64,000 bases of DNA from Pegea sp. RAD2-039 (lineage: Eukaryota; Chordata; Thaliacea; Salpida; Salpidae), in NCBI GenBank assembly GCA_034620365.1, contig JAQGEQ010000177.1, forward strand, positions 434,001-498,000, written 5' to 3'. Below are positions 7,963 through 59,500 of this stretch, in pieces. The notes below the pieces were generated by a model. The model made no database searches, was not told the origin of the DNA, and worked only from the letters and a program-made list of their open reading frames with translations. Each line of letters starts with the position of its first letter. The stretch's first letter is position 1. The translations under genes and the position numbers were made by a program.

Positions 7963-10900
7963 ATGGCTGGTGGGTATACTGAACTTGCTTCGATACAGAC
8001 TAATCAAGGAATTAATCACTATGAGCCAACAGTTGTTCATTTTGATACAGGATCAGAATTATTATGGACAGGAAACAACAGAGTCTGTTCATCTACAACT
8101 TTCATCTATACTTTGACATCTTCATTCTATTTAGGGATCTGTTGTTTCGATGTTAGGAAATGGTTTCCTCAAATATACAGCTTTCCAAGTCAATTCTCAA
8201 GGCTTGCCAGTAGTTGACCTACTGACGTTTGATGATAATCTTTTAAGTTTAAGTCAAAACAGCCTGAAGTGTAATACCAAGCAAGGATTACACGGATTTG
8301 AACTTTTGTAAGTTATTTTTGCTTATTTGACTTTGAAATTATCAAATTGATTTTTATAGAAATCCTCCTGGACATATAGCCAGCTGCATGATGTTTAGTA
8401 GAGATGGCAGTGTTCTTGTTGGTGGTGAATTTAATGGTTTATTCCAAGTAGATGTAACAAGAGGACAAGTTTTGAGAAGGTAAAATGATTTGGAAGAGTT
8501 GAAAAGAGGTTTGAGTAAATATTTAAAAGTTTGGATTCTTCTGATGAAGCTCAAACGATGTTGCTAAGAGGAGACACAAATACAAAGTTTATTTGTTGTG
8601 GCGATTATTCAGGGAATGTAAGTTAAAGATCATCCAGCCAACAAAATCATCTCATCTCTTCTAGATTGTTTTTCGTGACCCTGATAAGTTGAACGTCCTC
8701 CAAAAAGTCAACGTCCACTCAGCAGCCTTATCTGATTTTGATGTCTGTGGTCAATCAATGATGACGTCAGGGTTTTCTCATCGAGCTGGGTAGAGAAAAC
8801 GCGCAAAAAGTTTATTTACTTCAACATGTTTTTACAGAGGTGTGTGCTTAGATCAGTTCGTGAAAATCTATGATCTACGGATGTTAAGATACGTCTGCCC
8901 TATGAAATGTGCGGTCCGTCCTGATTACTTGAGGTCAGTACTTCTTCTTCCACTTCAGTAAATTTCTCACTTTTTTGATGATTTTTTTTCAAAAGAAATT
9001 AAAATGTTTAACTTTAACCATCCAAAAAAAACATATTCATCGACAAATTATATGTGGAGTATTTATTCGGTCTTGCTAGATAGATTTCAGGGTTGCGACA
9101 TAAATTATTTGAAACATTAAATTCGATTTACTTTTACACTACTATGTTTGCGCTTGGTGGCTCAGGGTGTTTAGAAGGCACTTGCTCGCACCTTGACTTG
9201 TAAAAGCTCCTCGCCCAACAACAATAATTCACTTTTTTTTGCAGATACGTGTCTTCATACACACGAAATGTTGCAATGATTGCAAAATCTGGACAATTTT
9301 TGGTGATACCTGACAACTCAACTGTCACTCCATCTACTCAAATCCATCAGATTCGAGCGTCGAGTGAAATCCTCAAAATGGACATCAGTAAAACTAACCA
9401 TGCGTTGTGCTTTGCTGATTCAGGTAAAGACATATCTGTAAAAATCTTCATTTTTACATCACTTTCATCTTGAAGGAGGCTTTGTGCATGTCTGGTCATC
9501 TTCTCAACATACAAAGTTCAACAAACAAAGCAAAGAGCTCGAATTCGCTCCACCACCAACTCGCCATCGACCCACAGACTTCGATGATCTGACAGTAAGT
9601 AGAATTAACATCGTGGTAAGTCCAAACTGATTTCCGTCAACAGGTCTCACTTGCCTCCATCCCCATGCCCCTATGTGAAGGTCCACTTCTATCGGATTGG
9701 CCCCCTGATTTTAATCAACGAGTCAGTCGTCGACATCTTCCATTTGATCCTCAGCTGATGACGTCAATGAATTATAAACAAGGGATTCGGTTTGCTCCTA
9801 ACAACAACAAGCGACTTCGTAACCAGGTTTGTGGTTCACTGTCCATGAGTAGTTTGGTGACGATTGTCTTGACAGGTTCCATATCGACCACAAGATATGA
9901 TGGTTGGTAAAGACAAGAAGGGGACTTCTGTTAGTGTGGTTGATAATCCAGTTGATAATCAACCTTTAATCCCAGAGCAGTTCCGGAAGGTAATTGAAGG
10001 TAAAAGATGAAATTTTGTTGATGATTTTCTGTTTAGGTTGCTTTTAAATACACTAAACTTGGTGATGAGGAAGATGAGATGGTCAGACGTCACAATCGGA
10101 CCTATTTTGCGGGTCTTGATCCTAATTTAAAGAACGCTTATTGCAATTGTATGCTGCAGGTTCATTTGCTTCCAACATATATGTGTTTGTGAGGATTAAT
10201 TTGATTTTTTTCAAGGTTTTATTCTTCATTGAACCATTAAGATGCTTTTTCCAAAGTCGTCACAACCTTCAAAAAGAATTTGAGTTGGCAGAAGAACTTG
10301 GTTTTTTGTTTCATATGCAAGATGTCTCTATGGGTGGAATCTTACAGGTACAAACATAATTAATGTTATCACGACCAACCAATGATATCGCGCAGGCAAC
10401 CAATTTTCTGCGGGCTTTTCGAACTATCCACGAGGCCAAGAACCTTGGATTGACCCAGTCGTACATCAACAACGATGTAACTTCATCTTCCAGCACAAAC
10501 GATCTTCCTCATATGATTCAAAACTGGAATCGCTTTATCCTTCAACAACTTCATTATGTAATCAAATAATCAGATCAATTTTCGTTTTTTTATTCTTCTT
10601 TTTTTCAGGAAACGAAACCGCAAGCACTAGAGAACCAAGAGCCGACTTCTGAGTCTAATGTCCGATCCAACAAATTCAGAAATGATTGTAAGTTTCTATC
10701 AATCATCGCATTAACATCAAATAATTCTTCTCGCGGTCTTACAGCGCGAAACGATCCCTCAAAGTCAATAATCGAAAAAGTGTTTGGCACCGAGTTACAA
10801 GTAATAACTGAATTTCGAAACGGCAAAGTTACATCTGCTTCGACCGTTCAATTCCTCTTCAATCTCTCTTATCCTATACTCCCTAAAACTGGTGAGTTGT

Positions 10901-12913
10901 TCCTCCCAAGATTTGATGAGCAAACAACTAACCACGTGACACAGAGACTTCCGAAACAGCCGAGTTCATTCCCTTCTCTAAGATTATTCATGATAGCATC
11001 TGCCAGCGAGTTAACTTGAAGTCTTGGGATAATGAATCCAATTCTTTTTTACCAATGGTCCAACAAAAGACCCCTTCATCTCTTCCTGAGATGTTGGTCC
11101 TCAATTGTAACGTTTATAGTGAAGACAACATCCGGTTTTGGACGGTAAGTGTCACTGGTCTACTTCAATCGATTCAATTTTAAGTTTTCAGATTCAAAAT
11201 GAAATTTATCAAGAAAAAGTGAATCGACTAATCGAAAGAGGTTCGAGCGAACCCGAAGTCGAACATTGGTCAGTTTTATTTCGATCAATCTCAAAAATTT
11301 ACAGATCTCTGTGTTTAGGAGACAACAAGCTAATCAACGGGAAATAAGAAATCAGAAATGTAATTCAAAGTCTAGTCAGAAAGATGAGCCAATGGTGAAG
11401 CCAAGCTGGGTTCCAAATTACATCTCGCTAATAATCGATGCCAACCAAAAGTTGCATGTCCGATCAGCTCTTGATGGAATGAGTGAAGATAGTAAGTCTT
11501 AATTAAAACCAAAGTTTAAGAAATTGAAATCGTCATCTTTAGCAGATCCTCTGATCGATGAGACCTGTTCATTTGCGTGAGTTTATTCTATTACTAGGTG
11601 ACGCTTTCTTTCAATCGTGTACCTTAGAAACTACGAGCTTCACGCCAGCGTCGCGCATGTCCAACAACCAAAGAGTAGTGGAAACCTCATCGCAAGTATC
11701 AACGTTTCTGAACCTTATCATCGTCGCAAAGAAGTAATCAATTGAATATCCTGAGAAGCAAATAGCAGTAATCGTTGATTCGCAGAAAGTCACTCATTCT
11801 CAGTGGTACTTCTTCAATGAATTTCGGATCAGTTCCATCGACAAAGAGGAGGCTGTAGACTTCGACCTCCGCTGGAAGATGCCTTGTATTTTGTACTACA
11901 AGAAAGAGGATATCTTGTCAAGGTCAACATCACTAAATATAAGCTTGTGAATCACGTGACATCTCAACAGGAATCCTTACGACATCAAGTTTCCGTTCGG
12001 TCCTGAAATTCTTGAACCCACTCCCAGCCTCGCCAAACGAACCCCTAAATCATCAAATGTGCCAAAAACTGTCCCATTAGACATCGCAGAGCTGGACAGT
12101 GAGAAAGTTCTGGTCGCGCTCGATGCCGAGTTTGTTACTTTGAATGCGGTTGGTTTCTATTTTCATTATTTTGATTCCAATCCTCAACTGATGTATCCAG
12201 GAGGAAGCCGAACTCCATAGTGATGGAACCCGGTCCACAATCAAGCCCTGCCAAATGCTGCCCGCTCGTATCACTGTAGTCCGTGGACAAGGACCTCTTG
12301 AAGAAACTCCTCTTATTGATGATTACATTCAAACAGATGAACAAGTCGTCGACTATCTAACCCAATATTCAGGTGACTACCTTCAGGACTTCAACATCTT
12401 TTATCTCAATTGTATCTAGGGATCAAACCAGGAGATTTGGATGCTTCTCTCTCCTCTAAGCATCTTTCTCCTCTCAAATTGACTTACTGTAAACTTCGCT
12501 ACCTCATCCACCGAGGTTGTATCTTCGTTGGACATGGATTGAAGAAAGATTTCAAAGTAATCAACATCTTTGTTCCTGATGCACAAGTCCGTGATACTGT
12601 GAAGCTCTTTCACGTCTTTCGGAAGCGATTTATCTCTTTACGGTTCCTTGCTTGGTACTTCTTGGGTCGGAAGATTCAAGAGGAAATGCACGATAGTGTT
12701 GAAGATGCTGTAACAGCGCTTCGACTTTACAAGTTTGTTCATTTGTCGGTCACGTGACTTTGCAACTAGCCATAACTGTGCAGGAAATATCAAACGTTGA
12801 CTGATGATGGCAAAAAGATGGATGAGTTCCGGAATAAAATCTTGCCTGCTTTATATGAAGAAGGAAGAAAATTGGATTGGAAAGTTCCTAAAGAAGACCC
12901 TGTTCAAACTTAA
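7963..12913 (+). CDS. PAN2: PAN2, catalytic subunit of the PAN2-PAN3 deadenylase
   Basis: About 25 short exons; I could join them in frame from ATG 7963 to TAA 12913. PAN2 trims mRNA poly(A) tails in the cytoplasm together with PAN3. Domain order matches the animal protein: N-terminal WD40 propeller (about 7963-9600), the PAN3-binding linker, a ubiquitin-hydrolase-like fold ([18 protein letters not shown] and RWNRFIL-type blocks, 10130-11500) and the C-terminal DEDD exonuclease. The catalytic acidic residues are visible in LDAEFVTLN (about 12121-12147), [10 protein letters not shown] (12530-12560) and HDSVEDA (12690-12710). It lacks the ~57 residues that precede the equivalent MEGVYSEL start in human PAN2; the AG acceptor at 7959-7960, two bases before the ATG, supports this start. 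The last exon ends [11 protein letters not shown]. Introns are rich in TGACGTCA and CACGTGAC. Confidence 0.95.
9159..9225 (+). repeat. Short intronic repeat shared with the transporter intron
   Basis: Lies in the PAN2 intron 8935-9244, by far the longest intron of that gene. It pairs with 24138-24205 at the same internal spacing. The insertion may explain why this intron is about five times longer than the others in PAN2. Confidence 0.4.
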
Positions 12914-14703: not shown

Positions 14704-17700
14704 ATGGTTACAAAAGTTCTTAATGTGGCTGAAAAAAATGATGCAGCCAAAAGAATTGCTGAAATTTTGTCTGGTAGAAACAAAAGAGTGGTAAGTTTTA
14801 AGATGAGTTTCATTTGAAGTGAATTATTTGACATCTTTTCACTTAGAGAGAAGGTTTCTCTGTTTATAACAAGATTTATGAATTCAATTATAATTTACGG
14901 GGACAAAATTGTATAATGGTGATGACGTCATTATCTGGTCACATGATGAATTATGAATTTATAGGATCATATAAACAATGGTTTGGTTAAAGATGATATT
15001 TTGTGATTTTATTTGTTAGTTTTTTAGGAATTCTTGTCACCCTTCAATCCTATTTCAAGCTAGTCTTGAAAAAACAGTGAATAAGAATATGGTGAACATC
15101 AAAGTAAGTTTAGAAATCAAATAAAGAAAATTTGTAATTCTGATTTTTTAGAGGACTTTGGAAAGAGAAATTAGATCTTGTAACTCTCTCATCATTTGGA
15201 CTGATTGTGATAGAGAAGGTGAAAATATTGGTTATGAAGTTATTAATCTTTGTAAAGATATCAAACCAAATATACAAGTTTGGAGAGCAAAATTTTCAGA
15301 AATTACAAACAGGTTAGCTCCAATCAAATCAATTTTCATCTCATAATCATCAACAGTCTTATAGATCTGTTACAAATGCTTGTAACAATTTAAATCAGCC
15401 AAATGTTAATATCAGCAATGCTGTTGATGCCAGACAAGAATTAGATCTAAGAATAGGTTTGTTTGATCTTCTAACTACCAGCAGCATGTAAATGATAGCT
15501 TACAGGAGCAGCCTTTACCCGTCTTCAAACACTTCGTCTTCAAAAAGTCTTTCCAGAAGTTTTATCAAAACGTTTAGTGAGTTATGGGAGCTGTCAGTTC
15601 CCAACTCTTGGCTTTGTAGTTGAACGTTATAAAGCTCGTGAAGCTTTTCAAAGCGAGGACTTCTGGAAAATCGAAGGTATCTTCATTATTTGATCTCGTT
15701 TATATTTTTAATCTTCTCATTTTTTAGTGATTCATCAACAAGAAGCGGTAAACGGCTCTGGTGACGGAAGTGATCTTCAAACTGCTCGATTTAACTGGAA
15801 ACGGCATCGAGTCTTTAATGAGCTTGTTTGTTCTGTTTTTCACGCTAATTGCATCGAACCTCCAACCATAGCGGTTGTCACGAACGTACGTGGGCGCCCT
15901 AAGAGCCGTTGGCGTCCTGTTGCTCTAGAAACGGTTGAATTGGAGAAATTAGCATCTCGAAAGTTGGGCTTGAACGCCAAAACTACTATGCAATTAGCTG
16001 AGAAACTGTATACACAAGGATACATCAGTTACCCTCGAACTGAGACTAATATCTTCCCTAAGGACATCGATCTTTCACGATTAGTCGAAGATCAAATTCA
16101 ACACAGATCTTGGGGAAGTTTTGCTGAGAGTATTTTGAACAACGGAGGTCCAAACCCTAGAAATGGAAGCAAATCTGATAAAGCTCATCCACCAATCCAT
16201 CCAACCAAATTCACTGACTCCTTATCGGTTAGTTAATCTAAATCCTCATCTTTTATTTGATCTTTATCTTCAGGGTAATGAAGCGAAGCTTTACGAGTTT
16301 ATTGTTCGTCATTTTCTCGCATGTTGCCACAAAGACGCTCAGGTATGCCATCTAGTGTTCAATTAAAATCTTCTGATTTATGATGACAGGGACACGAGAC
16401 AACAGTGGATATTGGTCTAGGAGGAGAACAATTCTCAACGCAAGGTCTTATGATAACTGCTTACAACTATTTAGAAGTTTATATTTATGATAGATGGAAC
16501 ACAAAAGTACAAAGCTCACATCAGCTCGATTTAAACACAAAAACGACCATTTTCGTCTTTACAGGTGATTCCTGCTTACGAAATGGGATTCGAATTTGAA
16601 CCAACTCGAATTGAGATGATTAAAGGATCAACTTCTGCTCCCAATCTTCTTACAGAAGCAGATCTGATTGCTCTTATGGACAAACACGGAATCGGTAACT
16701 CTAAAACTAACACGATATGATTTCATCAGTAGTGACGTCACAGGCACCGACGCAACACATGCGGAACATATCGAGACCATCAAGTCGCGTTTGTATGTTG
16801 GACTAACCGCTGACCAAAGGTTTACGCCCGGTGAGCTGGGAATGGGACTGGTTGAGGCGTACAACTTAATTGGATATGATATGTCCCAACCTTATCTTCG
16901 AGCTGAACTTGAAGCCGACCTGGGCCGCATTTGTGATGGAAGCGCGCGAAAAGGCGATGTACTACGTCATCACTTGTCTAAATATCGCGCAGTATTCGAT
17001 CAAGCAGTTGAGAAGGCTTGCAAGTGAGTGTGACGTCATATGATGACGTCATCGAGTCTTATCACATGATAAGCAGATTTGATGAAGCTTTATCGGTTTA
17101 TTTTGGACAACCGATTGAAAATTTGGGTCAGACCTTGGTCCAATCTACACCAGTCCGGCCCTGTCCTGTTTGTGGTGCTGATATGGTCTTGAAAGACACC
17201 AAATCCGGAAGGTAAGATCAATTAGATAAAACTAGAATTATACTAAATAGTTACATCAAATATATGTTATATAAAGTTGATCTAAAAATGATTTTAGAAA
17301 GATGATCTCTTGTATGGGATTCCCATCTTGTCGGAATGTTGCTTTCATCTCATCTGCCGTCAGGACGATTGATGTGACGTCACAAGTGTGTCCCACATGT
17401 CAACCTTCACCTGTTCACCTGTAAATGATCACCTGTCCACTATTCAATTTATTGAAATCATTTTTTAAGGTTCAAATTGAAGTTGAATCGCAACCAGATT
17501 CCTCCATATATTGAATGTGATCTTGTAGCATGTCTTGGAGGTTGTGATCAAGATTTGAATACTTCACTTGATATTCAGTAAGCTCATTTTTCAATCTTTC
17601 ATTCTACTTGCTAATTGGCTGATCTTTTCAGCTTTAGATGCTCGAATGATAACAATGAAATATTTCGAACCCCAAATCCACCTACCCCAAGGGCCTCTTC

Positions 17701-18380: not shown

Positions 18381-18858
18381 AAACGATCAGAAGGAAGATC
18401 AGTGACTTTAAAAGAAGATTAGGGTCTTTAGAAGAAGATTAGAAGATATTAAGACAATTTTTTGCTTGATTAATTTTTTTCTCGTTTTATTTATTGAAGA
18501 AACAAAATCTTTAATGTTTTTTTTTATTTTCTTACTACGAATAAACGTTATGAATATTAATAATTATTGATAAGTTATTGACAACCGGCTGTTGTCAGCT
18601 GACGTCAAAAGGCTTAATTTATTAACTATTGAGAAATTAACATGAGATAAAAAAGAGAAAAATAAAAAAAGTACATCTGAAAAGTTAGATAACTTTGAGT
18701 TTAATTTCAATCAGTTTTAGTGAGATTTTTACAAAGCTTCAGTTGAATAAATATGTTTGAACATCAAATGATGTCTTGTTTTTACAGATTTAGTTAAATG
18801 AAGTTATATAAACAACATCAAGTTCAAGACCTTTAGAAAATACAGAAATGCTTTTAAA
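18381..18858. other. Intergenic spacer
   Basis: Contains an AATAAA near 18540, probably the TOP3A polyadenylation signal, and one TGACGTCA at 18600. Nothing else recognised. Confidence 0.5.
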
Positions 18859-27700: not shown

Positions 27701-28279
27701 ATTGCTTGGTAGCTGTGGCCAACTTTAGATTTATATGATTTTTATCAACTTGATTTTTTCTATAGTGTATGTTGTCTACAGTAAATAAAATTATATTATT
27801 ATTAGTAAATGAAACTTTTTAAACATTTTATATTTGAATTATTTGCATATACTAAAGAAATGTAACTATCTAAAGTAGTATATAATACTAAAGTATAATT
27901 TATCTACTTTTCATTTATATTTTAAAGTATTAACAAAATCAACTTTTATTTTTTATTTATTTTATTTTTAATGATGTTTTTTTTATATTAAAACTTACAT
28001 AATCAGTATTGATATATAATGTTATTAACAACTTTAAGATATATAATAATTGTGTGGTAAATATTTCCTTATCAAAGTTGAAATTAGTTTTTAAGCTTTT
28101 ATGGTACTATTTGCTATTTTTATAATCTTTAATTAACAGTTATTTAAAACTAAACCCATGTGCTTATTGGATTAAAGTTTTTGGTGATTCTCTTTTAGAT
28201 CATGTTGTTATTATTAAATTTAAAGTTTATGAAAATTGATTAAATATATTGGTTATTTCACAGAAAACTTAAGGTTGAG
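24716..28279. other. Intergenic region with retroelement relic
   Basis: Apart from the reverse-transcriptase C-terminal relic (25434-25860) and its possible 3' tail ending in TTAAATAAATAGATAAAC near 26750-26766, this is A+T-rich DNA with no gene that I can support. The acceptor CACAG at 28259-28263 belongs to the TRAPPC8 5' leader. Confidence 0.5.
25434..25860 (+). mobile_element. Decayed non-LTR retrotransposon, C-terminal end of the RT protein
   Basis: One reading frame (frame of 25461) holds the classic C-terminal block of LINE-type RT proteins, interrupted by several stop codons. It starts VVNYLHWHINK, followed about 45 codons later by NRPDIVLTD, then CLLMDIAVPSN, KEFEKKSKEIKDL, and VIAALGF. 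In intact elements these read like HDxVAxxLHW, RPDIVxxD, LIDIAVPxD, KYxDL and VIGALG. Four in-frame stops show that it is dead. No matching endonuclease or RT core is visible upstream, so the copy is 5'-truncated, as is usual for LINEs. A tail with TAAATAAATAGATAAA at about 26750 may be its 3' end. Confidence 0.75.
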
Positions 28280-31200
28280 ATGTCATTAAATTCAAGATCT
28301 TCAAGTGACTTTATTAAAAATGTATATGGTCCAAAAGTTGCTGTGCTATGTAGCCAAGACGCTGAACTTTTAAGTAAAAGAAATAATTTAACTTTTGTTC
28401 AATTATTACGCCCATTTTGTAATATAAAAAAGAAAGAAATTCAACTCCGAGATTTAAATGGACAATTGTCACAAATAACTAATCTTAACATTTCATTACA
28501 TGATCTAAAAGATGTAGTTCCAAATAGCAGTCAAATTAATCAAATGGTTCTCAACTCAGTTCAATCTGCAATGAATAATTGTGGCAAGTTAGAAACATGG
28601 AATGTTAAGCATGGCAATTATGATCTTGATATAAATGTTTCGTGTCCATGGTATGAAGCTTATAGAGAATCTGTGATTGCTTTAGCTCCACAAAAAGATA
28701 ATGAATTCATCAATTCATTTGTTGCTTGTCTTCTTGTTGTATCTTCTTCTCACCCTAATCCTCTTGAAGAATTCTCTCGGCTAAGTGGACAGCAGAATCA
28801 GATTCAACATAGTACACCAGAATCTAATTGGAAATGGATGATCCCAAATACTTTGAAATATTTTGTACTTTTACATGATAACTCACAAGCTGATTTATCA
28901 AGAGCACAAGCGGTTATGAAAGAATTGCAATTGATGCATTCTAATGCTTGCTATTTATTACAAATAAACTCAAAAAGTGTATCAGATGACCAAGAAACAC
29001 CTGAGCTTTGGAATAATCTTTTAAATGACATCAAATCAAATGATTTTTTGAACAATTCTCCAGAAAGAAAGTTGAATTCTAATAATGACAATAAAAGTTA
29101 TGGTTGTTGTTTAAATAATTCTGATTATGAAAGTTTAACTACATTTGTATATGAATGTGCCAGCAGAGGAATCATTCCACACATGGAAAAAACCATTCGA
29201 AACCTAAATGAACAAATCAGCTCAAGAAAAGGACTCCATAGAAGTATTATGCGAGTAACGAAAAGTTTGTTCCGGACCGCCCCAATTCCTTCTAATTATA
29301 CAACCAGTCGAGTTAGTGAGCCCTTAGAACAAGTACGGAAAGTTGCTGATTTATGCTTCTTGTGTCAACTTTATGAGAATGCTTATAATTTTTACTATAT
29401 GGCAAAAAAAGAATATTCAAATGAGAACTGGCTTCAAGCAGCTAGTGCTTCTGAAATGACAGCTTTAAGTCACTTCATGCAGTTACCTCATACACAACGT
29501 TCCTACCCATCGCATTATGTGGAATCAGCCATTGATACTTACATAAACCGAAAAACAGATGATTTTGTTTTACTACGATGTATCTTGGTCAGTTTAGAAT
29601 GTTTAAGACAACAAAAGTTGTTTTTAGAAGCAACTTCACAAGCTATAAGACTTGGAAATGATGAAAATGATTTAAAATGTGCGTTGCTATTAGAACAAGT
29701 TGCTCACTGCTTCTTACGCAACAAGCGACCAATGCTTAGGAAGTTTGCTTTCTATTTGGTTCTTGCTGGTCACCGGTATGGTTTAGCTTCTCAACGGTCT
29801 TGTGCCTTACATTGTTATGCATCAGCTTTACAAGTTTATAAGAACACAGATTGGCGGTTGGCACTGGATCATATTTACTTCAAGTTGGGCAAACATTATT
29901 TGAGTTTGAACAACTTTTCACAAGCTCTTTCATCGTTCGAAATGCTGGTTTTGAGATCATGTCAATCGCCTGTTCAGCAATTAATGTTTTTAAATGAATT
30001 TTTAGATATTGCAAAAAAATATCAACAAAATTCTGAACAAGAAATTATATTTCAACTTCCTGCTGTTGACTACAAATCTAACAGTGTAAGATTCGAAGCA
30101 ACAACTCCAGGATCTACATTTGATGAATCTTTTCAGAAGATAGAGGATTTTACTGAAGATTATTTATCTTCAAACAATATCCCAACAAAAAGTTACAAGG
30201 TATTTGAAGGAGAAGAGATTTGGATTGACATCTGTGTTGTTAATAATTTACAAATCGCTTTAAATATGAACAATATTATTTTACAAATTGAATCTGAAAC
30301 AGATTCATCTGAAACTCAAATATCTCTTCCAACTATTGAACAAGTCATAGTTCCTGAATTATCATCTCAATATCTTACATTCAACTTTAAACCTATCTGT
30401 TCGGGTGTTATTAAAGTTTGTGGTTTACGTTACCAACTGTCTTCTGCTAAACCTCAAAGCAAAATTTTATTAGAAGGAATTCAAACTTTTGATGAAGAAC
30501 AAGTTTTAAAGTTAAACGTCCTTCCAACCATGCCGAAGCTGATACTAGAAACTATTTCTAACTTACCTAAAAAAATGATGAAAAATGAGATTATCTGTTC
30601 ACCTGTAACATTTAAAAATATTGGTACAAAAAATGCTGGCAAGATAAGTTTAGTTTCTTATTCACAAAGTTATTGTTTAGTGACTAACCCAGAAGTTGAT
30701 GCGTCAGTAATAAATGAACAGCTGCTAAGATCAAAAACAGAAGAAGTTAAAGATAAAACATCATTTGTTGTTCAAAAAAATTTCATTGAAAGTCTCATGG
30801 CTGGTGAAGAATTGAACTTATGTTTGTGGGTTCAATCGAACAGTGAAAAGAAGCATTTAGTCGAGTTTGTGGTTTACTACGAAGATGAAAGTGACTCTCA
30901 ATCAAGATTCAACAAGAGTAGATTCCTACGGTTTAGACATTCAATTGAAATTGAAGATGAAGTGACTTTCAATCGAAATTTTTCGTGGAACTGTGGAGCT
31001 GAAGCTACTGCTGCTGTTTTGATTCGTATGACAGAAAATCCTTTTGTTTATTTGAATAGTTTTTGCTGTAAATCGAATAGATGGAAGGTCAAACGTTTAT
31101 TAGCTGCTACAGAGGCTTCTGCTTTTGCTTTTAAAGTTAATCGACTATTGAAGAAGCATCATAACACTGAAGGTGTTCAATGGTTGGATTTATCTGAACA

Positions 31201-31852
31201 AGATGAATTAATAATAAGCAATACAGTTGAACAATTAAATTGGCAAATAGTTATTGATAATGAAAGTTTAAATTCTACAAACAATTCAAATTCCACAGAT
31301 ATCGATTCTTTAGTAATCGCTATACAATGGTCGAAAAAATCTAGTAGTCAAAAAGGCCAATCTTACATAAAGATTACTGAGTTGGCATCTTCTTCAGATC
31401 TGCCAGAAATCTGTGAAGAAATTGATAACCAAAAACTTGAAGCTTTACATCGATTAGTAAAATGGAATATAAGTTGTAAAAGTGAAGTACATCATTCATT
31501 TGATTTGAGTAGTCCTTGTACTCTACCAATCAATGTGCTGTTGTATAATCAACATGATTGTAAATTACGTGTTCAAGTTGATGCTAGTAATACACAAAAT
31601 GCTGCTGGTCAAAACCAACCTTCATCACATAAATTTGCCTGGCTAGGAAAAACTTTTTATGATTTTCAACTGGAACCTTGTGGCGAGCAAACTATTCAGT
31701 TGGTTGCTTACTTCACCCGATCAGGGACTTTCAATATTAACTCTTTTAATGTCTGGGCTCTTCCATCAACTAATGAAAGGCTTCAATTGGTTCCACAGAC
31801 TTGTCAGTTGCCATTCTTGATTTCTGTATTTAATCAAGATGATAAATTTTGA
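28280..31852 (+). CDS. TRAPPC8: TRAPPC8 (Trs85), TRAPPIII subunit, in a single exon
   Basis: Uninterrupted 1190-codon frame, ATG 28280 to TGA 31850-31852. TRAPPC8 is the defining subunit of TRAPPIII, the RAB1 exchange factor for ER-Golgi and autophagy traffic. N-terminal blocks align clearly with the animal family: VAVLCSQDAELLSK, FVQLLRPFCN, CPWYEAYRES, NEFINSFVACLLVVSSS, IPNTLKYFVLLHD. The middle contains PHMEKTIRNLNEQ and ISSRKGLHRS, then the helical repeat region (RKVADLCFLCQLYENAY, ALLLEQVAHCF, AFYLVLAGHRYG). The C-terminal third is beta-rich and ends in Ig-like folds. Human TRAPPC8 is about 1435 residues; this one is shorter, mainly in linkers. A 3.6-kb coding region without introns is striking beside PAN2, TOP3A and PGM2. 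A splice acceptor AG at 28262-28263 precedes the ATG. Confidence 0.93.
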   Translation: MSLNSRSSSDFIKNVYGPKVAVLCSQDAELLSKRNNLTFVQLLRPFCNIKKKEIQLRDLNGQLSQITNLNISLHDLKDVVPNSSQINQMVLNSVQSAMNNCGKLETWNVKHGNYDLDINVSCPWYEAYRESVIALAPQKDNEFINSFVACLLVVSSSHPNPLEEFSRLSGQQNQIQHSTPESNWKWMIPNTLKYFVLLHDNSQADLSRAQAVMKELQLMHSNACYLLQINSKSVSDDQETPELWNNLLNDIKSNDFLNNSPERKLNSNNDNKSYGCCLNNSDYESLTTFVYECASRGIIPHMEKTIRNLNEQISSRKGLHRSIMRVTKSLFRTAPIPSNYTTSRVSEPLEQVRKVADLCFLCQLYENAYNFYYMAKKEYSNENWLQAASASEMTALSHFMQLPHTQRSYPSHYVESAIDTYINRKTDDFVLLRCILVSLECLRQQKLFLEATSQAIRLGNDENDLKCALLLEQVAHCFLRNKRPMLRKFAFYLVLAGHRYGLASQRSCALHCYASALQVYKNTDWRLALDHIYFKLGKHYLSLNNFSQALSSFEMLVLRSCQSPVQQLMFLNEFLDIAKKYQQNSEQEIIFQLPAVDYKSNSVRFEATTPGSTFDESFQKIEDFTEDYLSSNNIPTKSYKVFEGEEIWIDICVVNNLQIALNMNNIILQIESETDSSETQISLPTIEQVIVPELSSQYLTFNFKPICSGVIKVCGLRYQLSSAKPQSKILLEGIQTFDEEQVLKLNVLPTMPKLILETISNLPKKMMKNEIICSPVTFKNIGTKNAGKISLVSYSQSYCLVTNPEVDASVINEQLLRSKTEEVKDKTSFVVQKNFIESLMAGEELNLCLWVQSNSEKKHLVEFVVYYEDESDSQSRFNKSRFLRFRHSIEIEDEVTFNRNFSWNCGAEATAAVLIRMTENPFVYLNSFCCKSNRWKVKRLLAATEASAFAFKVNRLLKKHHNTEGVQWLDLSEQDELIISNTVEQLNWQIVIDNESLNSTNNSNSTDIDSLVIAIQWSKKSSSQKGQSYIKITELASSSDLPEICEEIDNQKLEALHRLVKWNISCKSEVHHSFDLSSPCTLPINVLLYNQHDCKLRVQVDASNTQNAAGQNQPSSHKFAWLGKTFYDFQLEPCGEQTIQLVAYFTRSGTFNINSFNVWALPSTNERLQLVPQTCQLPFLISVFNQDDKF

Positions 31853-36137: not shown

Positions 36138-38310
36138 ATGGAAGCGTCTATATCGCTATGCCAGTTTTGTGAAAATCATGGACCTTGTATTATGTTCACA
36201 TGCCAGAAGATTCCGACCTCATATCTAAACACAGAAGTTAATGATGATTTAAAAGATGAAAACAGCTCACTTAAAACTTCTAGTCAATCTACAAACTTCA
36301 AAGAATCTTCTTCAGATGCATCTTCATCCAGATCCAGCTCCCAGAAGAGGAGCTCTTCTCCATGTCCCTCTTGTCAATCAATCCCTCAAACAACTACCAA
36401 CAGCGGATTTATCACACATGATCACAAACTCTCATCTTCCTACATCAGTAATCGAAATCCGAACAACTCATCAATTTACAATCTTATCAAACAAGCCTGT
36501 GTCCGGAGCCTAACAGGCGAAGTCTGTCCTGACAACGAGGGGTCGTTTATGTTTGGGGATCCCATCAACGGTTACGTTATCGCTTTCGTCTTCTCTTTAC
36601 GTGATAATCACGCGCGAGGCAAGAAGCGGACCTTCAGTTTGATCTACATCACCAATGATCGGGTCTTTGCCGTTCAATCGATGGATTTTATTGCTAAGTG
36701 TCTTTCTTCAATCGCTAAATACCTACAGGTGAATAGCTTCGTTACGCTTACTGCACCCGCTATTTTAATCACTAACCTATCACGTGACCATCGGAACTGC
36801 TGTGAATATATTTTAGTGTCGTGTTTACATGTGTGACGTCATATCCGTTATAGAAAAGCTTATGTAAACGAGATTAGTCATGTTTGAAATCTACTTCATA
36901 ACTTCAACAGTAACTTCTGATTTCCTAAGTTGCAGTGAAGTAATTGCTCCACCTTTAAAATCGGGTTTTATTTCAATTTGAAGCCCTGTTAATCGCTGAC
37001 ACTAGCAGAGAATTTTCATCTAATCTGTTTGAAACATGTGACTTTGCAACCACAAGAGGCGCTCTTTGTTTTGATTGTTTGTTTCATTCTGCAAAGTTTG
37101 CATTCAGTTCACATGACCTCTGCTTTCACACTCATGACTTCCGATCATGACGTCAACTAGCCGAATAAGCGATAGTTACAATGATGTCATCAACCAATAT
37201 TCATCACGTGACCAAAACTAATCGATTTTTTTGTTCATTTCAGCAAAAAGCAAATGAAGTTTATCAAAATGAGACAAGTTGTCGATTTAATTCCTGCTCC
37301 TTCAAATCTTGTGTCTTTACTTCGTCAAAAAGTCCTCATCACTCCTCAAAGGATCAAAAATCTTCTTCAAAGACTCCTCGATCTCTCAAGGACACTGTCA
37401 ACTTGCCTGATCTTTACTCCTACCTCCACAAAGCTTTTTCCTGGATTCTTAGATCAGCAAAAGAGCGTTTGAAAGAGAAAATATTTTTTGGAAGGTCTCC
37501 AGAAGATGAAATTGTCAAAATGGAACATGATGAGAAAGATATTCAAGATGTTGATCTTTCAGATGAAGATCAGTTGAAATTCGGCGAGGAATTCACCTCA
37601 TTGCGTCACATCCGGCAGATGTTGCAACCGACTTTGTTCCGTGCTTTATTGTGGCATCTTCTGATCGGGAATCAAGTGATATGGAGGAGCAAATATGGAT
37701 CTACAGTCAGATCAGCTCTAAATATCATCCAGAAAGTCCTACCTCTCGGATGCGTCAAAATCAAATCTTTTTCTTCGTCTTATGTCAACTCTTATTGTGC
37801 TAATCTATTGGGACTTTCTAATGACACAATTCTTCCAAATCATGTGAAGAATTCTCAGCATTTTGTTTTAATTGATGTCGTTTCAAAAACTCCTAAAGAC
37901 TCTAAGAGTCAATCTCTTATTAATATGGAGTTTCGGATGACCAGTGGATGTACAATCCCAGAAAAACTTCCTCAGTTGTTATGTAAATTAGATGCAGTGT
38001 TGGAATTCACAAATTTCTCGCAGGATGTAGTCAGTCGATGTATTTTATGCTACAAAGAGGAATGGGTAAAGTAAGTTTGGATTTTTATCATTCAAATTAT
38101 TTCAAACAACTTTTACGTTTTAGTAAAGCAAAAGTTCTCTACAAGTTTGCTCGCATTGACAACAGAAGCAAAAAAGAAGCTGAAAAGCTGCTGAATGTAG
38201 TCCTTGGATGCACTTCAGATTCAGATGTTCGCCTTCTGAAGTATTGGATGACCGGCTTAAGCCAACAGTTCAAACTAAATCTCCGCCAATCAAAGAAAAG
38301 TAATGGTTGA
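36138..38310 (+). CDS. FLCN: Folliculin
   Basis: Three exons, 36138-36728, 37244-38070 and 38124-38310, phases 0 and 2, giving 534 residues. Folliculin is a Longin-DENN protein that acts with FNIP on the lysosome as GTPase-activating protein for RagC/D in nutrient signalling. The start, ISLCQFCENHGPCIMF, matches the ALCHFCELHGPRTLF family opening. Further matches: ACVRSLTGEVCP, the arginine-containing DNHARGKKRTFSLIYI (position of the catalytic arginine finger in the human protein), ISHD-like ITHDHK, SLRHIRQML, LLWHLLIGNQVIW, CCYKEEW-like LCYKEEWV and the final LKYWMTGLSQQFK. A serine-rich linker (SSDASSSRSSSQKRSSS) replaces the acidic vertebrate one. A candidate AATAAA lies at 38372. TGACGTCA and CACGTGAC motifs crowd the first intron. 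Confidence 0.94.
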
Positions 38311-46040: not shown

Positions 46041-46083
46041 AACATTTTGAAGAACTCAAGAAAGGAGTCACTCAGCCATTGAT

Positions 46084-46271: not shown

Positions 46272-46289
46272 ACTAGAAAAGTTGTTTAG

Positions 46290-47782: not shown

Positions 47783-49535
47783 ATGAAAGTAATTGTTGCT
47801 GCTTTTCCTAAATGTGGTACTAAGACCATGGCAGCAGCTCTTAAAGAATTAAACTTTTTGGTCTATGATGCAATGGAAAACTTTGAATTTTTAGAAAAAG
47901 AATGGTTGGAGGTATTTACTAAAGGGGCAAATACTGAACATTTCAAGAAAATGTTTGATAATGTGGATGCTTGCACTGACATACCTGCTTGTTACTTCTG
48001 GTATGAAATTCACCAAGCATTTCCGGATGCAAAAGTTTGTTCCGTTTTTGTTAAACCATTTTTCCGATTTTTAAAGTTACTTTTACCATATTAACTTCTA
48101 ATTTTTTTACTATTTTGTATGTTACTATTTTAATACATATGTACTCGTCTAGCTGCATTATAAGACTGTTAAGAGAGTGGTTCGTTTACAAAAATTAAGA
48201 TAAAGCTTTCCTTTTGTATTCGGAGTGATGATTGTTAGTCTCATTCTAGTATTACGCTTCAAAGCATCCATTTCAGTGGTTTTGTGTATGCTAATCAAAA
48301 TACTTTTCATGTTTCATTTGTTAAATTATAATATTATTTTTACCAATTTGTTCTTAATATCTAAAATTAATATCGTAGTAATATATAAGATACATATTAA
48401 TTAATTTGTTTACAGATGAAATAATTATAGTAGAATAACTTTAATCGTAATTTATTCTTGAATTTAAAAAATGCAAGTAACTGAAACATTGATGACGTCA
48501 TTCAATATAACTCTTTTAGATCATCTTTATCGAACGAGAAGATGAAGATACCTGGTGGGAAAGTATGAAACGTCAAATAGCTTCGACAAATATTCCATCA
48601 ATGAAGATGATGATTCTTTTATCTCCAACATTTCGCAGATTAGATTATTATTCTCGTAAAATGTGTAAGTTTTAAAATGACTTTTTACACAATTACCACT
48701 GACATGAATCATTAAAACAACTATTTTTATTCATCTTTACGAAAATGAAGATTATAACTTTTTAATAATATTTTGTGCATAAAATTGAAACTTTTGCTTT
48801 TATCGACAAAATTTTCAAAAGTAAAAATTTAGTCCCAATGTATTTCCACGATTAATTACAGTGAACAAAAGTCCTTACACAAATACATTCAATAATATAT
48901 TACAAGATCGGCGCTCAGATGGCCCCATGCTAGTCCACACAGAATTTCAGCTGCTCCCAACGTTACCAAACGTGGGCGACAGAAGCATGATTAAAATCAT
49001 CAACGCGCGTCTTCAATCATTTGGCATGTTATATAAATAAACTATTTCAAATCTTTTATTTGTGGTTTCAGCAATCGCTTGTTTTGGATTTGACTACAGA
49101 AGAAAATTCTCTCTTGGCATTACCGGCAACCAACTGCTCTATCGTATGGCTTATCGTCGCCATAATGCATTTGTTCGCGAAGTAAGTGATGTCACCATAG
49201 ACAACGCTAACTAGCAACTTGTATAGATGGCACCACGTGACAAGCTGTTGATTTATAAAATCACTGACGGTTGGGAACCATTGTGTCGCTTTCTTGACGT
49301 CAAAATTCCTTTAACTCCTTTTCCGCATGAAAATAAAGCGGCGAGTCTTATTAAAGAACTTCAGCAAACAAATCCAATGTTCAAAAAAATGCATCACGAA
49401 GTGATGACGTCATTAGCATGTCTTGCAGCGCTTACACTCTTTGCTAGTTATAAGACTGTGAAAGCTTCAGTGACGTCATCATTTGACATTGGCTGGTTAA
49501 ATCCTTTAAAGTTGATCACCAGATTGAAGTTTTAG
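47783..49535 (+). CDS. P-loop sulfotransferase family protein (271 aa)
   Basis: Four exons, 47783-48034, 48520-48664, 49072-49181 and 49227-49535, phases 0, 1, 0. The family transfers sulfate from PAPS or is a divergent P-loop relative, often annotated Sulfotransfer_4/uncharacterised in invertebrates and lower deuterostomes. The 5'-phosphosulfate-binding loop is AAFPKCGTKTMAAALKEL at the very start, preceded by MKVIV. Later blocks are YDAMENFEFL, DIPACYFWYEIHQAFPDAK, ERDEDTWW-like EREDEDTWWESM, MAYRRHNAFV and DGWEPLCRFL followed by TPFPHENK. A hydrophobic stretch near the C terminus (about 49420-49455) may anchor it to a membrane. The intron 48665-49071 contains an open, G+C-richer segment that could be an alternative last exon. 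Substrate unknown. Confidence 0.87.
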
Positions 49536-50201: not shown

Positions 50202-50469
50202 TAAACATTTGCTTCTGATCAAAATATCATACATCTAGCAGAAATGCAAAGTTTGGTTTTCATCAATGATGCCACGAAATTGTGTTTATAATTTGGGATT
50301 CTCAAGCTAAATACCGAGTCAACTTCAGATTTTTGAAAAAGCTCTTTCAGAAAAGTATTTCATTATGAAGAAAAAATTTATACAAGTTTTTGTATATGAC
50401 GTCAAGAATAGATTTTATTTCAAATGATCAGTAACAAAAACTCAAAAACATATCTCAACTCAATTATCA

Positions 50470-51780
50470 TCATTTGCTGTCATGCTTCACTGCATTCGTG
50501 AACAACTCGAAAGTTTTTTGCTCGAAACTTGAAGCTGTTGAAACTTGTAACAAATCAAAACAAGTTTGTCTAAAAAGTGAATTGTAACTATTTTGAATGA
50601 TTTCAGAAATTGCTGAAACTGAATTTACAACAGCAAGATCACGTGACTGCTGTAGATGAGAAGCCTTCGAAAGCGCGATTGTTTTACTCAACGCTTCTAC
50701 CAAACAGACTTTTACAAACTGCTCATTGTCGTTCAAGATCTCTTCTAGATTTTCTTCAATCCAATCAGAGAGCAGAAAGCGCTCCACGCTGCTCCTAGGT
50801 ATTTCAGGATCAATAAGATTAAAAGAGAAAAAGATGATGATGTCAGTATTGACTTGGTTGCTATCACAACAAGATAGCTCCCAGCACGCGATTGGTTGAG
50901 TGAGATGTTGAAAGTTTACAGGAGAGAGTTTCAAGTTATAACTCTTCCAAAGTTGATCCCAAAGATGAAGATTTAGATTTTGTTCTTCAAAAATTGGTGT
51001 TGAAAAAGGACAAGATGAAAAGACTTTCAGATAACGATCTTGAGAAGAAGATTCAATTGGGATCATTCCGACGCCAACTTTTAGGATCAGATGAGATGTT
51101 GATGAAGATTGAAGAGCAAGTAAGCGAGGTTTAGAAAATTGGAAGTTGATTTTCACTTCGTCATCTTTACAATCAAATACAAAGTTGCTAGAATCTGTAG
51201 CTAGCTGAAAATCGATACAATTTCCACCAATTACCAGTTTGCTGCTTGTTTCAGCTTGATGTTGAATCAAAAGTCGATCTTCACCAATAAATCCGATGTC
51301 TAAATAAGGATTTGAAATATAGAGTAAGTGCATATACAAACTAACTTCATTTTCTATGGATTTTTTGAGTTTTTTTGTCAAATATATATAGCTGATATAA
51401 AATCTAAGCTGGCATATAAGACCATCAGGATAATTAGAATCAAAATCTCTCCAAACCATGGGATCACCATTTTTTTCTACCACAAACTTTTCATAAACTT
51501 TTTCATTTGATGATGAAATTTTGCTTAATTCAAATTTGATTAAATCATCACAAGAATGAATTTGATGAAGAAGTTTTGAAACTGTGAAAATCTTTTCCAC
51601 TTCGTCTGAATTACTTCCTTTGCCATAATTGATGTTTAATTCAATATAATCTTCACTACTGATACAAGAGACTATTAAACTTCTGTTTTGGTCACTAGTA
51701 ACAGCTACAAGTAAATATTTGAGACATTTAACTATTGTCAATTCAGTTTTGAGATTTCTATCTTCACTAAAATCACTCAT
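50470..51780 (-). CDS. Unrecognised intronless 436-aa protein
   Basis: Single frame from ATG 51780 to stop 50470. No signal peptide or transmembrane segment is visible. The protein looks globular and beta-rich in the middle, with serine-rich linkers, and has an alpha-helical C-terminal ~100 residues (LSDWIEENLEEIL, then VVNSVSAISEIIQNS and FDLLQVS). The motif LISNPYLDIGFIGEDRLLI-like part near residue 150 and the KVGVGMIPI segment may belong to a fold, but I cannot name it. The long intact frame with normal codon use argues that it is expressed. A pyrimidine-rich TTTTAG lies a few dozen bases upstream of the ATG. A divergent meiotic topoisomerase VIB-like protein crossed my mind from the C-terminal pattern, but the sequence does not establish it. 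Confidence 0.6.
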   Translation of the reverse strand: MSDFSEDRNLKTELTIVKCLKYLLVAVTSDQNRSLIVSCISSEDYIELNINYGKGSNSDEVEKIFTVSKLLHQIHSCDDLIKFELSKISSSNEKVYEKFVVEKNGDPMVWRDFDSNYPDGLICQLRFYISYIYLTKKLKKSIENEVSLYMHLLYISNPYLDIGFIGEDRLLIQHQAETSSKLVIGGNCIDFQLATDSSNFVFDCKDDEVKINFQFSKPRLLALQSSSTSHLILKVGVGMIPIESSSQDRYLKVFSSCPFSTPIFEEQNLNLHLWDQLWKSYNLKLSPVNFQHLTQPIACWELSCCDSNQVNTDIIIFFSFNLIDPEIPRSSVERFLLSDWIEENLEEILNDNEQFVKVCLVEALSKTIALSKASHLQQSRDLAVVNSVSAISEIIQNSYNSLFRQTCFDLLQVSTASSFEQKTFELFTNAVKHDSK

Positions 51781-52003
51781 TACTTTAAATCAAGCTGTTT
51801 TTAATAAACTAAGGCTAAAACTAAAAAAACAAAATTCTCTAAATAAAAAAAAATGTTAGTTTAAAATACTTTATTATTCCTCTAAAATATAAAGAAATTT
51901 TTCAATCAAAAAAAATCTTTTAATAAAAATAACTTAGAGTAACATATTTTTAAATACAAAAACCAAAAAAAAATTGAATTTGATTGCTTTATAAAAGTCT
52001 AAT

Positions 52004-53631: not shown

Positions 53632-54312
53632 AAAAACAATTAAAACATTTGAAACAAAATTTCAGTTAGTATCTTCTAGATTTAGACAAATTTTTTTATC
53701 AACTTTAATTTAGTTTTTTAGTTGATTTTTAAAATTATTCATCTATATATATTCTATATTCTTCCAATCTTGGAGAACTTAGAGTTAAAATATTTTAATT
53801 TTTTTCTTTAGATTTGCAAATCTCATTTCGAACGTCTTCACTTTTCTTGGAGTCAAAGTCTTCTTATTTTCTAAGATAACGCCAACACCTTTTGTGGTAA
53901 GTATCCCTTTATATATGATCTCTCCCTGTTTGTCATCTTTATTCTGATTTTATTCTTCTTCTGGTATTCTTTCTAGCCTTGTTATTTCCAATCTTATTTT
54001 TTTCTGATCCTGATTCCTGATTTAATTATAATCTTTTGTTTAAACTGATATCTTTATGCTAACCTCTCCTCTGATCCAGATCCAATCTCAAACCTAATCT
54101 CTATCTTCTTTTTCCTCCTACTTTCTATTCTTATTTCTTATGGTCCTGTTCTTTCTAACTTTTGTTCTCATCAAAATCTTCCTACTAATCCTGATCTTCA
54201 TCTTCCAGCCTTATGCAATCACTCACTATGGTGCTTGTGCTGGTGTGATGGTCACTGCTTCTCATAATCCCAAACAAGACAACGGTTACAAAGTATATTG
54301 GAAGAACGGTTC
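53632..54312 (+). pseudogene. Truncated inverted copy of two PGM2 exons
   Basis: Near-identical, in reverse orientation, to 58260-58935 of the PGM2 gene. It includes the 85-base exon (53812-53896), the whole following intron, and most of the next exon (54209-54312) with the catalytic [17 protein letters not shown] block. The copy stops inside that exon at GGTTC, where a LINE fragment begins. Introns are almost unchanged, so the duplication is recent and DNA-based. It lacks all other exons and cannot make an enzyme. Confidence 0.88.
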
Positions 54313-56136: not shown

Positions 56137-56512
56137 ATAGTTGGTCTGCTTTTAGATCATTTTATTAAAGCTTATAATGATTGATTCTTTCTTTACTTTT
56201 ACTGAAATCAATTAATATTATAAACATATTATTCAAATTTCGGTAGTTTTTATTTATTGCAACAAAGTTTAATTAATTGATAAGCTCGTTTATACACAGG
56301 TTGTTGTTTAAGTAGAGATTTTATCATGACAATCTGTGACTAGCGTTATCTTAACAACATATATATATATCATGTAATCAGATTGTTGCTAAGAGTCTAT
56401 CATTACACCCTGTGATCTTTATCTCCTAATCTTCATCATCTTACTTTTTAATGTTAATCATGTTTAATAATTGGAATAAAATCGAAACCACGTGACAAAT
56501 ATTATCGTCGAA
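56137..56512. other. Downstream region of PGM2
   Basis: A+T-rich with a short (AT)n run near 56361. Holds the presumed PGM2 3' untranslated region on the minus strand. Confidence 0.5.
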
Positions 56513-59500
56513 TCAACTGCGAGTTTCAAATCCATTCAATTTCGGCTGAATAAATTCTTCAATCATCAAATCAATCAACTCTTTCAACTCTTCCACCAAT
56601 TCAGCGCGATTTCTATACAAATGACGTCATCAAACATTAGGGGAAACATCCAAGCCAACACTTACCCTTTTTTACAAATTTCGGAATAGTATTTGATCTT
56701 AGGTTCAGTTCCAGAGGTTCTCAGGGTCACAACGGTGCCATTATCGAAATAAAAAGTAACCATCTCGCTACCAGGGGTTTTAGGCAGGTTCTGACGTCAT
56801 CAATGATGTCATAAATTGATAAAATATGTGGCGTCATCACTTACTGATTGCTGATTGGTTGTTCGACTATCGAAACCAGTTGTGACGTCACGAATCGCGT
56901 TTATTCGAAACTTGCCAAGATTTGTTGGGTATTTGGAAGCTTGGGAATTTCCAGGTTGAAAATTTCGAAGTCTTTGAAACATTTGAGAAGTTTTCTGAGA
57001 ATCGCGAGAAATGACGTAAGAGTTGTTAGTCACGTGTTGACCGTATCTGCGAAATATGCAAATGAGTTTTGTGCAAAATATGCAAATGAGTTCTTTTTTA
57101 CTTTTCGTAAATTTGATCCAATTTTTGAGCCAGATTTAAATTTTCTTTTTTCAAATAACAAACAAGTTCCGCAGCAACTGCAAGAGCGCTAATTCCATCT
57201 TTATCCAAAACATTTGATCCAATCATATAACCTAAAAGATGATGAAGTCAATATCAGGAAGATCACTCGGAAATTGAGTTTACCGATCGCTTCCTCAAAC
57301 GCAAACAGCACTTGTTTACCGGAAGTGATGATCTCATCAGCGCGATTTCCCATCCATTTAAACCCAGTAAGTGTGTCCTAAAGATGAATGAAATTACAAA
57401 AGTCAACATTAAGTGTTTGATTCACTTCAAATGAGAATCCTTCAACTTTTGAAATTGATTGAAGAATTTTGGAAGAAACTGTTGAACTCAGCATCCAGAC
57501 ATCCTCTTTCTTAAAATCGCGGTTTAAATCGCGAAAACGCTTCCAACACCACCAACCTAACAACGTACCTGGCAACGACATCCAAATTAGTTGTAACAAC
57601 TCGTCAAATAATGTCACAGACCGATCTCATTTCCGTTAAACGCCCTCCAATGGCCACTTGTTGTCTTCTCGGCAATAGCTAATCGATCTGCATCGGGATC
57701 ATTAGCGAGAATGACGTCACAACCATTTTCATCTCCAGTTTCCATTGAAAGATGCTGCATGAGTTTGTTAAAGGTGAGATAAAGGTGTTTGGGACACTTA
57801 CCAGGACCCCGGCTCCTTCTTCTGGATTGGGATACTCGACTGTCGGAAACTCGGGATCTGGAAACTGTTGCTTGGCGACCGCATAAAAGGGTTTATGGTT
57901 GAAGACACGAAACGCTTCAGTCGCAAAATCGAGACCCACTCCATGTAGAGGAGTGTAGACAAAGCGAAGAGAAGATGACGCGTTGGTATCCCTATGAAGA
58001 TTAAAGAACTAAATGAGGGTCACGATAAAACCGAAGATAAGAAGATCTTACTGATATCCGGCGATTTTTTTTAGTTTTTCAAAATAACTTTTGAAAATTT
58101 CATCAAATGGATCTTGGACAAACTCTTTCTTCAAGTCACGTGACCACAAAACTTCAGACCAAGGTGCCAGGTTGGTTTGAATCAAATCAGAAATCCCTAT
58201 AACAAAGAAACTATGAGAAGAATACTTTGAAATCCTTTCAAACCACCTTTATCATGAGGAGGAATAATTTGAGAACCGTTCTTCCAATATACTTTGTAAC
58301 CGTTGTCTTGTTTGGGATTATGAGAAGCGGTGACCATCACACCAGCACAAGCACCATAGTGAGTGATTGCATAAGGCTGGAAGATGAAGATCAGGATTAG
58401 TAGGAAGATTTTGATGAGAACAAAAATTAGAAAGAACAGGACCATAAGAAATAAGAATAGAAAGTAGGAGGAAGAGGATAGAGATTAGGTTTGAGATTGG
58501 ATCTGGATCAGAGGAGAGGTTAGCATAAAGATATCAGTTTAAACAAAAGATTATAATTAAATCAGGAATCAGGATCAGAAAAAATAAGATTGGAAATAAC
58601 AAGGCTAGAAAGAATACCAGGAGAAGAATAAAATCAGAATAAAGATGACAAACAGGGAGAGATCATATATAAAGGGATACTTACCACAAAAGGTGTTGGC
58701 GTTATCTTAGAAAATAAGAAGACTTTGACTCCAAGAAAAGTGAAGACGTTCGAAATGAGATTTGCAAATCTAAAGAAAAAAATTAAAATATTTTAACTCT
58801 AAGTTCTTGAGGAAAGTCAAATTCAAAAAATCAGCAAAAAAACTAAATTAAAGTTGATAAAAAATTTGGTTAAATCTAGAAGATACTAACTGAAATTTTG
58901 TTTCAAATGTTTTAATGTTTTTATCTTAAGTAATTTTTAAAAACCTTTTACTATTATGACGTGAATCAAAACCAATCACAATTCCAGAAGTTTTAAGCTG
59001 AGAGCCAAATTTCACTTCCAAATATTTTGCAAAACCCTTTAAAACATCTATCATTAAAATCTGATGGAAATACTCAAAATGGAAATATCAGCCACCTACC
59101 TGAGTAGTTTGAATAATTGTCAATTCATTCATAGAATTATTCCCAGCACCCATTCTAGCTCTTAAACCTAAATAATCTTTTTTAAAGAAAAGAATGATAT
59201 TAAAATAACCTATTACCTGCTGTTCCAAATACCATTCTCTTCAATAAACATTTTCTCAGGGTTTCAATTTCATTATTTTTAACCAACTCTTCAACTTCAG
59301 ATTTTGTTGAATTGTTCTAAGAAAGTTAATACTTGTTATTTATTTTATTCAATACATGGCAACAGATGACAACTTATACTCCTAAAATAAACATAAAACA
59401 GCATGACTGTGGAAAAATAATGAAAAAGTCTTAAGTACCACCGTAAAGCACAAATAAAGTAGAAAGTAACACTTGAGAAAGTTGGGAAAAATTTATAATA

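Follow-up and report, generated by a model that had tools for sequence, protein, structure and literature searches.

Genome-wide iteration of TGACGTCA, a putative bZIP site, in the GC-rich gene blocks of a salp genome

A 64-kb stretch of the genome of the salp Pegea sp. RAD2-039 (contig JAQGEQ010000177.1, positions 434,001 to 498,000; here called the window, in whose own numbering positions are given) raises the question of why a single palindrome, TGACGTCA, recurs along several of its genes. The core of this word is the classic cAMP-response element (CRE), the ATF-CREB-JUN site. The window contains 19 exact copies, at every position given in a preliminary description of this DNA and nowhere else. 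The mean was 0.34 copies (maximum, 2) in 100 dinucleotide shuffles of the window, and order-1 and order-2 Markov models predict 0.41 and 0.30, respectively. At 297 copies per Mb, the window is about as dense in the word as the genome is on average (263 per Mb), and the excess suggests an unrecognized genome-wide role.

Apart from repeats, short words in an animal genome are expected to occur about as often as a Markov model predicts. The genome searched comprises 105.7 Mb in 387 contigs, with the window in contig 47, and contains 27,792 copies of TGACGTCA versus 969 of the reversed control word ACTGCAGT. A sample consisted of 22 loci of 10 kb (L009 to L026 and L029 to L032) picked by coordinate with their content unseen, with L009 and L010 on either side of the window; L027 and L028, picked for high density, lie outside these counts and were included only where stated. 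The 22 loci (220 kb) hold 52 copies versus 1.03 expected at order 2, a rate that scales to about 500 copies in 105.7 Mb and hence to an approximately 56-fold excess. The distribution is uneven: L023 alone contributes 37 of the 52 copies, the other 21 loci hold 15 versus 0.79 expected (19-fold), and 16 of the 22 lack the word. L023 (C25:200001-210000) is a 10-kb block of 45% GC that also carries an SPT5 C-terminal-domain-like frame derived from a 33-bp tandem repeat. Clustering also appears at a larger scale in contig 1, with about 100 listed places in the first 1.56 Mb and a region at 2.01 to 2.22 Mb dense in close pairs. With control words counted over the whole genome and Markov expectation taken from the samples, one short palindrome stands far above expectation genome-wide, as a highly iterated palindrome does. 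The preliminary description had proposed a genome-wide count against a Markov background, and the excess survives it at about 50 times expectation. Searches of open-licence papers, some of them aimed at the motif itself, yielded no report of such an excess in an animal.

The excess is tied to GC-rich DNA. When the window and the 22 loci were divided into 500-base bins, those of at least 36% GC (a small sample of 74 bins dominated by L023) contained 63 copies versus 0.88 expected at order 2, or 1.70 per kb (0.96 per kb without L023). Bins of 30 to 36% GC held 3 copies (0.05 per kb), and bins below 30% held 5 (0.03 per kb). With L027 and L028 included, order-2 enrichment was 61- to 95-fold in the four GC classes at or above 36% (16 to 32 observed versus 0.26 to 0.34 expected) and 0- to 22-fold in the five lower classes. 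Where the GC content of a bin was 36% or more (88 of 93 bins, the five with tandem words having been dropped), TGACGTCA then had the highest z score of all 8-mers. In the window and coordinate-only loci without L023, its 31-fold enrichment was equalled by that of CACGTGAC (34-fold) and of the shifted self-word ATGACGTC (33-fold). CpG depletion is milder in the classes at or above 36% GC (0.77 to 0.92) than in the lower ones (0.55 to 0.67). The GC-rich stretches are kilobases long, about the length of genes, and GC content declines over 400 to 800 bases around the sites. Some GC-rich bins lack the word, for example, those with a ZNF598-like frame in L020.

Exact copies outnumber near misses. 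In the GC-rich bins of the window and the 22 loci, the 63 exact copies compare with 32 for all 24 one-letter variants together (19.5 expected); the figures are 15 versus 8 in the window alone, 26 versus 22 in the window and loci without L023, and 84 versus 41 with L027 and L028 included. No exact-over-variant excess is seen in the GC-rich bins of the 21 loci alone, without L023 and the window (11 exact versus 14 variants, 5.9 expected). Eight other palindromes had 0 to 3 exact copies and TCACGTGA had 15 when L027 and L028 were included, and variants exceeded exact copies for all nine. Of the 12 variant pairs counted in bins with 33% GC or more, only TTACGTCA/TGACGTAA stands out; this pair, which we take to be a basic leucine zipper (bZIP)-like site, was enriched 7.9-fold (11 versus 1.4), the remaining 11 pairs lying between 1.1- and 2.7-fold. 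Flanks are also constrained: across 95 copies, position -1 is a purine in 90%, position -2 is G in 45%, and position -3 is T in 54%, a tendency toward TGATGACGTCATCA (TGA..TCA), and the TGA triplet occurs on 51 of 190 flanks. This preference is presumably that of CREB/ATF/JUN-type bZIP dimers.

Copies also tend to be paired. Genome-wide, 5,280 pairs have 0 to 30 intervening bases (31 spacings), versus 0 for the backward control. Starts exactly 20 bases apart were noticed after the fact in 10 of the first 56 listed pairs, and spacings of 20 and 25 bp were then counted genome-wide, giving 466 and 251 pairs, respectively, with tandem arrays included. In contigs 1 to 6, after five tandem rows were dropped by hand, the counts were 37 versus 12 (one-sided P = 0.0002, discovery stretch included) and, outside the discovery stretch, 27 versus 9. 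Of 20 such 20-bp pairs read with their flanks, 2 resemble tandem duplicates (L049 and L062) and 3 may be partial ones (L051, L053, and L060). The inner and outer 12-base stretches have a mean likeness of 4.7, versus 3.6 between unrelated pairs, so duplication may contribute a little to the 20-bp pairs.

A companion palindrome, TCACGTGA, occurs 4,614 times in the genome, versus 237 for its control word, and CACGTGAC is the word noted above as 34-fold enriched without L023; we take TCACGTGA/CACGTGAC to be a basic helix-loop-helix-zipper E-box. Copies of TCACGTGA in the window start at 11952, 12750, 36780, 37204, 50639, and 58136, those at 36780..36787 and 37204..37211 both lying in FLCN. Because the mixed word TGACGTGA/TCACGTCA is unremarkable (1.7- and 2.1-fold), TGACGTCA and TCACGTGA are favored as two separate words. 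The preliminary description did not mention the association with GC-rich blocks, the bZIP-like flanks, the predominance of exact copies over one-letter variants, the 20-bp pairs, or the companion word.

Within the window, 9 copies lie in coding exons, 8 in introns, and 2 just past gene ends, largely by reading; coding and intron calls were made from splice sites and homology, with an alignment or family match at 8762, 14923, and 49295. Two copies fall in PAN2 coding exons as Met-Thr-Ser, at 8762..8769 (with a Pfam PAN2_N match over the joined exons) and, by reading, at 9759..9766; a PAN2 exon searched against solved structures gave no match. TOP3A contains six. That at 14923..14930 lies in a coding exon, in the conserved VMTS-SGH stretch, where a gap-free alignment to solved TOP3A shows MTS to be identical. 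The copy at 16733..16740 occupies a short intron, its boundaries inferred from homology and GT-AG, and a C separates it from the 3' splice AG. A second short intron holds two copies by reading (17031..17038 and 17044..17051), and 17375..17382 reads as Val-Thr-Ser in the zinc-ribbon region of a coding exon, directly after a below-cutoff Zn_ribbon match; 18600..18607 is just past the stop codon. Both FLCN copies (36834..36841 and 37148..37155) are probably intronic, as is the first sulfotransferase copy (48493..48500). The other sulfotransferase copies are coding: Asp-Val at 49295..49302, inside a Sulfotransfer_4 match, and, by reading of the same open frame, Met-Thr-Ser at 49405..49412 and Val-Thr-Ser at 49471..49478 in the coding tail. 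The copy at 50397..50404 lies between this gene and a minus-strand frame at 50470. In the PGM2-like gene (minus strand), reading places 56622..56629 and 56792..56799 in short introns, the latter supplying, with its last A, the first base of the 3' splice AG; 56883..56890 (Arg-Asp-Val-Thr) and 57712..57719 (Cys-Asp-Val, adjoining a DPDADR stretch) are read as coding, with a PGM_PMM_II match in the frame neighboring the latter. The best match of a PGM2 frame among solved structures was an unrelated protein. Five copies are read within four introns of about 50 bases, and coding copies are restricted to two frames (M/V-T-S or D-V) because TGA is a stop codon.

These positions agree with the intron, exon, and gene-end locations reported earlier. 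Confinement to some genes holds broadly, with the exception of the copies at 18600 and 50397, which are located shortly past gene ends, and the G protein-coupled receptor (646-3642) and TRAPPC8 (a single open frame of 1,202 amino acids) were indeed found to contain no copy. Three further comparisons, all including L027 and L028, were not relied on. Two estimates of coding versus noncoding density disagree: open frames of at least 100 amino acids, some of which need not be coding, had 1.76 per kb versus 1.85 per kb for the rest, and classification by a position-specific coding score, which misses all window sites read as coding, gave 0.50 versus 2.08 per kb. Synonymous-codon shuffles of 35 open frames with 40% GC or more, again not all coding, form the third (32 observed versus a mean of 2.86 and a maximum of 7). 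On the possibility that the presence of introns governs where the word occurs, 12 frames of at least 250 amino acids (open frames and not gene models, with L027 and L028 again included) contain 3 copies in 6,356 codons.

What, then, is the word? Since exons hold copies too, they are not simple promoter CREs, as was already suspected. A protein, in the simplest case a bZIP dimer, is suggested by the flanks, by the single variant that is tolerated, and by the spacing. The genome has the cognate genes alongside the CRE core: there are 12 bZIP matches, and among the ten fetched, one each was read as JUN-like (L034), CREB-like (L035), and FOS-like (L036). Exactness and coding copies are unlike ordinary regulatory sites and argue for an element acting at the DNA level. 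Tentatively, and at a little under an even chance, TGACGTCA may be a putative CREB/ATF/JUN-type bZIP dimer site that is densely iterated through the gene bodies of a GC-rich compartment and is not a promoter element of a few genes. Copies with flanks toward TGATGACGTCATCA would be bound by such a dimer, and bound dimers, in some cases as pairs offset by the favored 20 bp, would make chromatin more open, or mark it, along these genes; binding would then matter to the cell through chromatin or transcription, a role proposed here from sequence. Exonic copies would be tolerated because MTS, VTS, and DV suit many proteins.

Several observations weigh against this interpretation. The bZIP set looks ordinary, almost half of the window sites (9 of 19) are read as coding, and two genes expected to be broadly expressed, TRAPPC8 and the ZNF598-like gene, lack the word. 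General helical phasing of pair spacing was not significant at any of five periods from 9.5 to 11 (P = 0.44 to 0.80), and 20-bp pairs account for few of the copies overall. Regulatory sites tend to be degenerate, whereas here exact copies exceed one-letter variants. In a study of uptake sequences, an exact-over-mismatched pattern is contrasted with the sites of regulatory proteins (PMC1626085).

That last contrast leads to the strong rival, itself rather unlikely: the bound palindrome might bias meiotic gene conversion toward its carrier chromosome in recombination-rich, GC-rich domains, for example by being shielded from breaks or repair, and so accumulate without regard to what the genes do, as is the case with bacterial uptake sequences. 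The same blocks do show raised GC and relieved CpG depletion, copies occupy coding and noncoding DNA alike, there is another palindrome in excess, TCACGTGA, and exact copies in GC-rich bins outnumber variants; uptake sequences are likewise more often perfect than mismatched and have many copies in genes (PMC1626085). The exact-over-variant pattern is, however, less clear without L023, whether the window is counted or not. Hotspot motifs should erode and not accumulate (PMC4287450), and not every CRE is a hotspot in fission yeast (PMC9775316). Nor does biased conversion predict the preference for 20-bp pairs. Whether a site arose by substitution or insertion bears on this alternative, and few sites are alignable; at 14923 in TOP3A, the one alignment is gap free. 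A broader claim, that a sequence-specific molecular drive operates in an animal, a regulatory 8-mer having spread as a selfish word by biased gene conversion through the coding and noncoding DNA of recombination-rich gene domains, is unlikely.

It is more doubtful still that a mutational or repair bias repeatedly generates the word in GC-rich chromatin without function. Its presence in both coding and noncoding DNA and the overall difference in base composition of the GC blocks would suit such a bias, but a neutral source with decay predicts about as many derivatives as exact copies, and approximately 12 excess derivatives were seen versus 62 excess exact copies; this short supply of derivatives disfavors a neutral mutational origin. 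An exact 8-mer that combines a three-base preference in either flank with a 20-bp spacing is not, to our knowledge, the product of any mutagenic process.

That each copy is carried by a dispersed repeat, a satellite, or an element that generates short introns is highly improbable. Some tandem arrays do contain the word (C8:368056 and C14:874420), but the 19 window copies have unrelated flanks, no repeat of at least 40 bases found in the window includes them, most listed pairs differ in their interior sequence, and the TOP3A alignment runs through its site without a gap. A repeat family or satellite was accordingly rejected for the window copies, none of which lies in the tandem repeats of the window, and the repeat-family alternative raised in the preliminary description fails. 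The excess is real, genome-wide, and due to no repeat family in the window, and the suggestion in that description of a sequence-dependent process was the right kind of idea. Finally, the notion that GC-rich blocks merely permit more GC-containing words, prompted by the strong dependence on GC, is so improbable that it can be set aside: it is refuted at order 2 in GC-rich bins, with the dense loci or without them, and the eight other palindromes, with their 0 to 3 copies, also speak against it.

Other features of the window and genome were noted. A fragment at 9148-9231, in a PAN2 intron by reading, resembles a satellite of 113-bp period, found in tandem at numerous positions in the genome (370 query matches). 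No allelic copy of the PAN2-TOP3A region that could reveal polymorphism was found among the 39 of 121 candidates scored, which yielded only the 113-bp satellite. An inverted repeat of about 650 to 680 bases (53633-54312 versus 58273-58922), in pieces and 79 to 100% complementary, encloses about 4 kb with part of the PGM2-like gene. The minus-strand region 50470-51789 has a below-cutoff match to DUF4554, presumably the family to which TOPOVIBL, a protein of meiotic break formation, belongs. An SSU rRNA was also located. Long uninterrupted genes, such as LDLa-type receptors (646-3642), TRAPPC8 (28244-31852), and at least eight near-full-length proteasome-domain frames genome-wide, adjoin genes with many tiny introns, for which retroposition or intron loss is a possible explanation.

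How does an iterated bZIP site, if that is what TGACGTCA is, compare with known systems? It shares with the animal CRE its exact core, bZIP-like flanks, and the presence of CREB/JUN/FOS-like genes, and it differs in having tens of thousands of exact copies, concentrated in GC-rich blocks and, in the window, mostly in gene bodies, including coding exons. Periodic A/T cluster (PATC) DNA of Caenorhabditis elegans lies in introns of germline genes. PATC DNA, which prevents germline silencing (PMC7725773), is likewise a genome-wide iterated DNA signature, but a sharp 8-mer in a GC-rich compartment is found here and not periodic A/T runs. The M26/CRE hotspot of fission yeast has a CRE-like core and depends on bZIP proteins (PMC9775316); here the motif accumulates, and the comparison is one of sequence. 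Cyanobacterial HIP1 is likewise one 8-bp palindrome iterated through a genome and is tied to orphan methyltransferases (PMC4390886); the salp word has another sequence, resides in an animal genome, and is bound to a compartment. As a separate observation, seven open frames with a DNA-methyltransferase domain, of 832 to 873 amino acids and without stops, occur at C57:819728, C57:825001, C32:10146, C32:24489, C32:36749, C52:9209, and C249:1740707, some neighboring in opposite orientation and perhaps carried by mobile elements.

Bacterial uptake signal sequences (USS) and DNA uptake sequences (DUS) resemble TGACGTCA in that exact copies exceed one-off copies and many lie in coding DNA (PMC1626085 and PMC2397512). 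The two sources differ on origin, USS not being insertions in one and many recent DUS having been brought by recombination in the other. DNA uptake has no place here, and conversion bias would have to fill its role. An exact 8-mer that is about 50-fold in excess, is present in coding exons too, and follows GC-rich gene blocks would demonstrate that protein-binding words can be written into a great many genes by a process acting on DNA itself. With this word one can ask directly whether it is selection or biased conversion that maintains it, and it offers a possible sequence handle on the origin of GC-rich gene compartments in an AT-rich genome. If molecular drive were true, TGACGTCA would be to a eukaryote what uptake sequences are to bacteria, and its spread would be the erosion of PRDM9 hotspots in mirror image.

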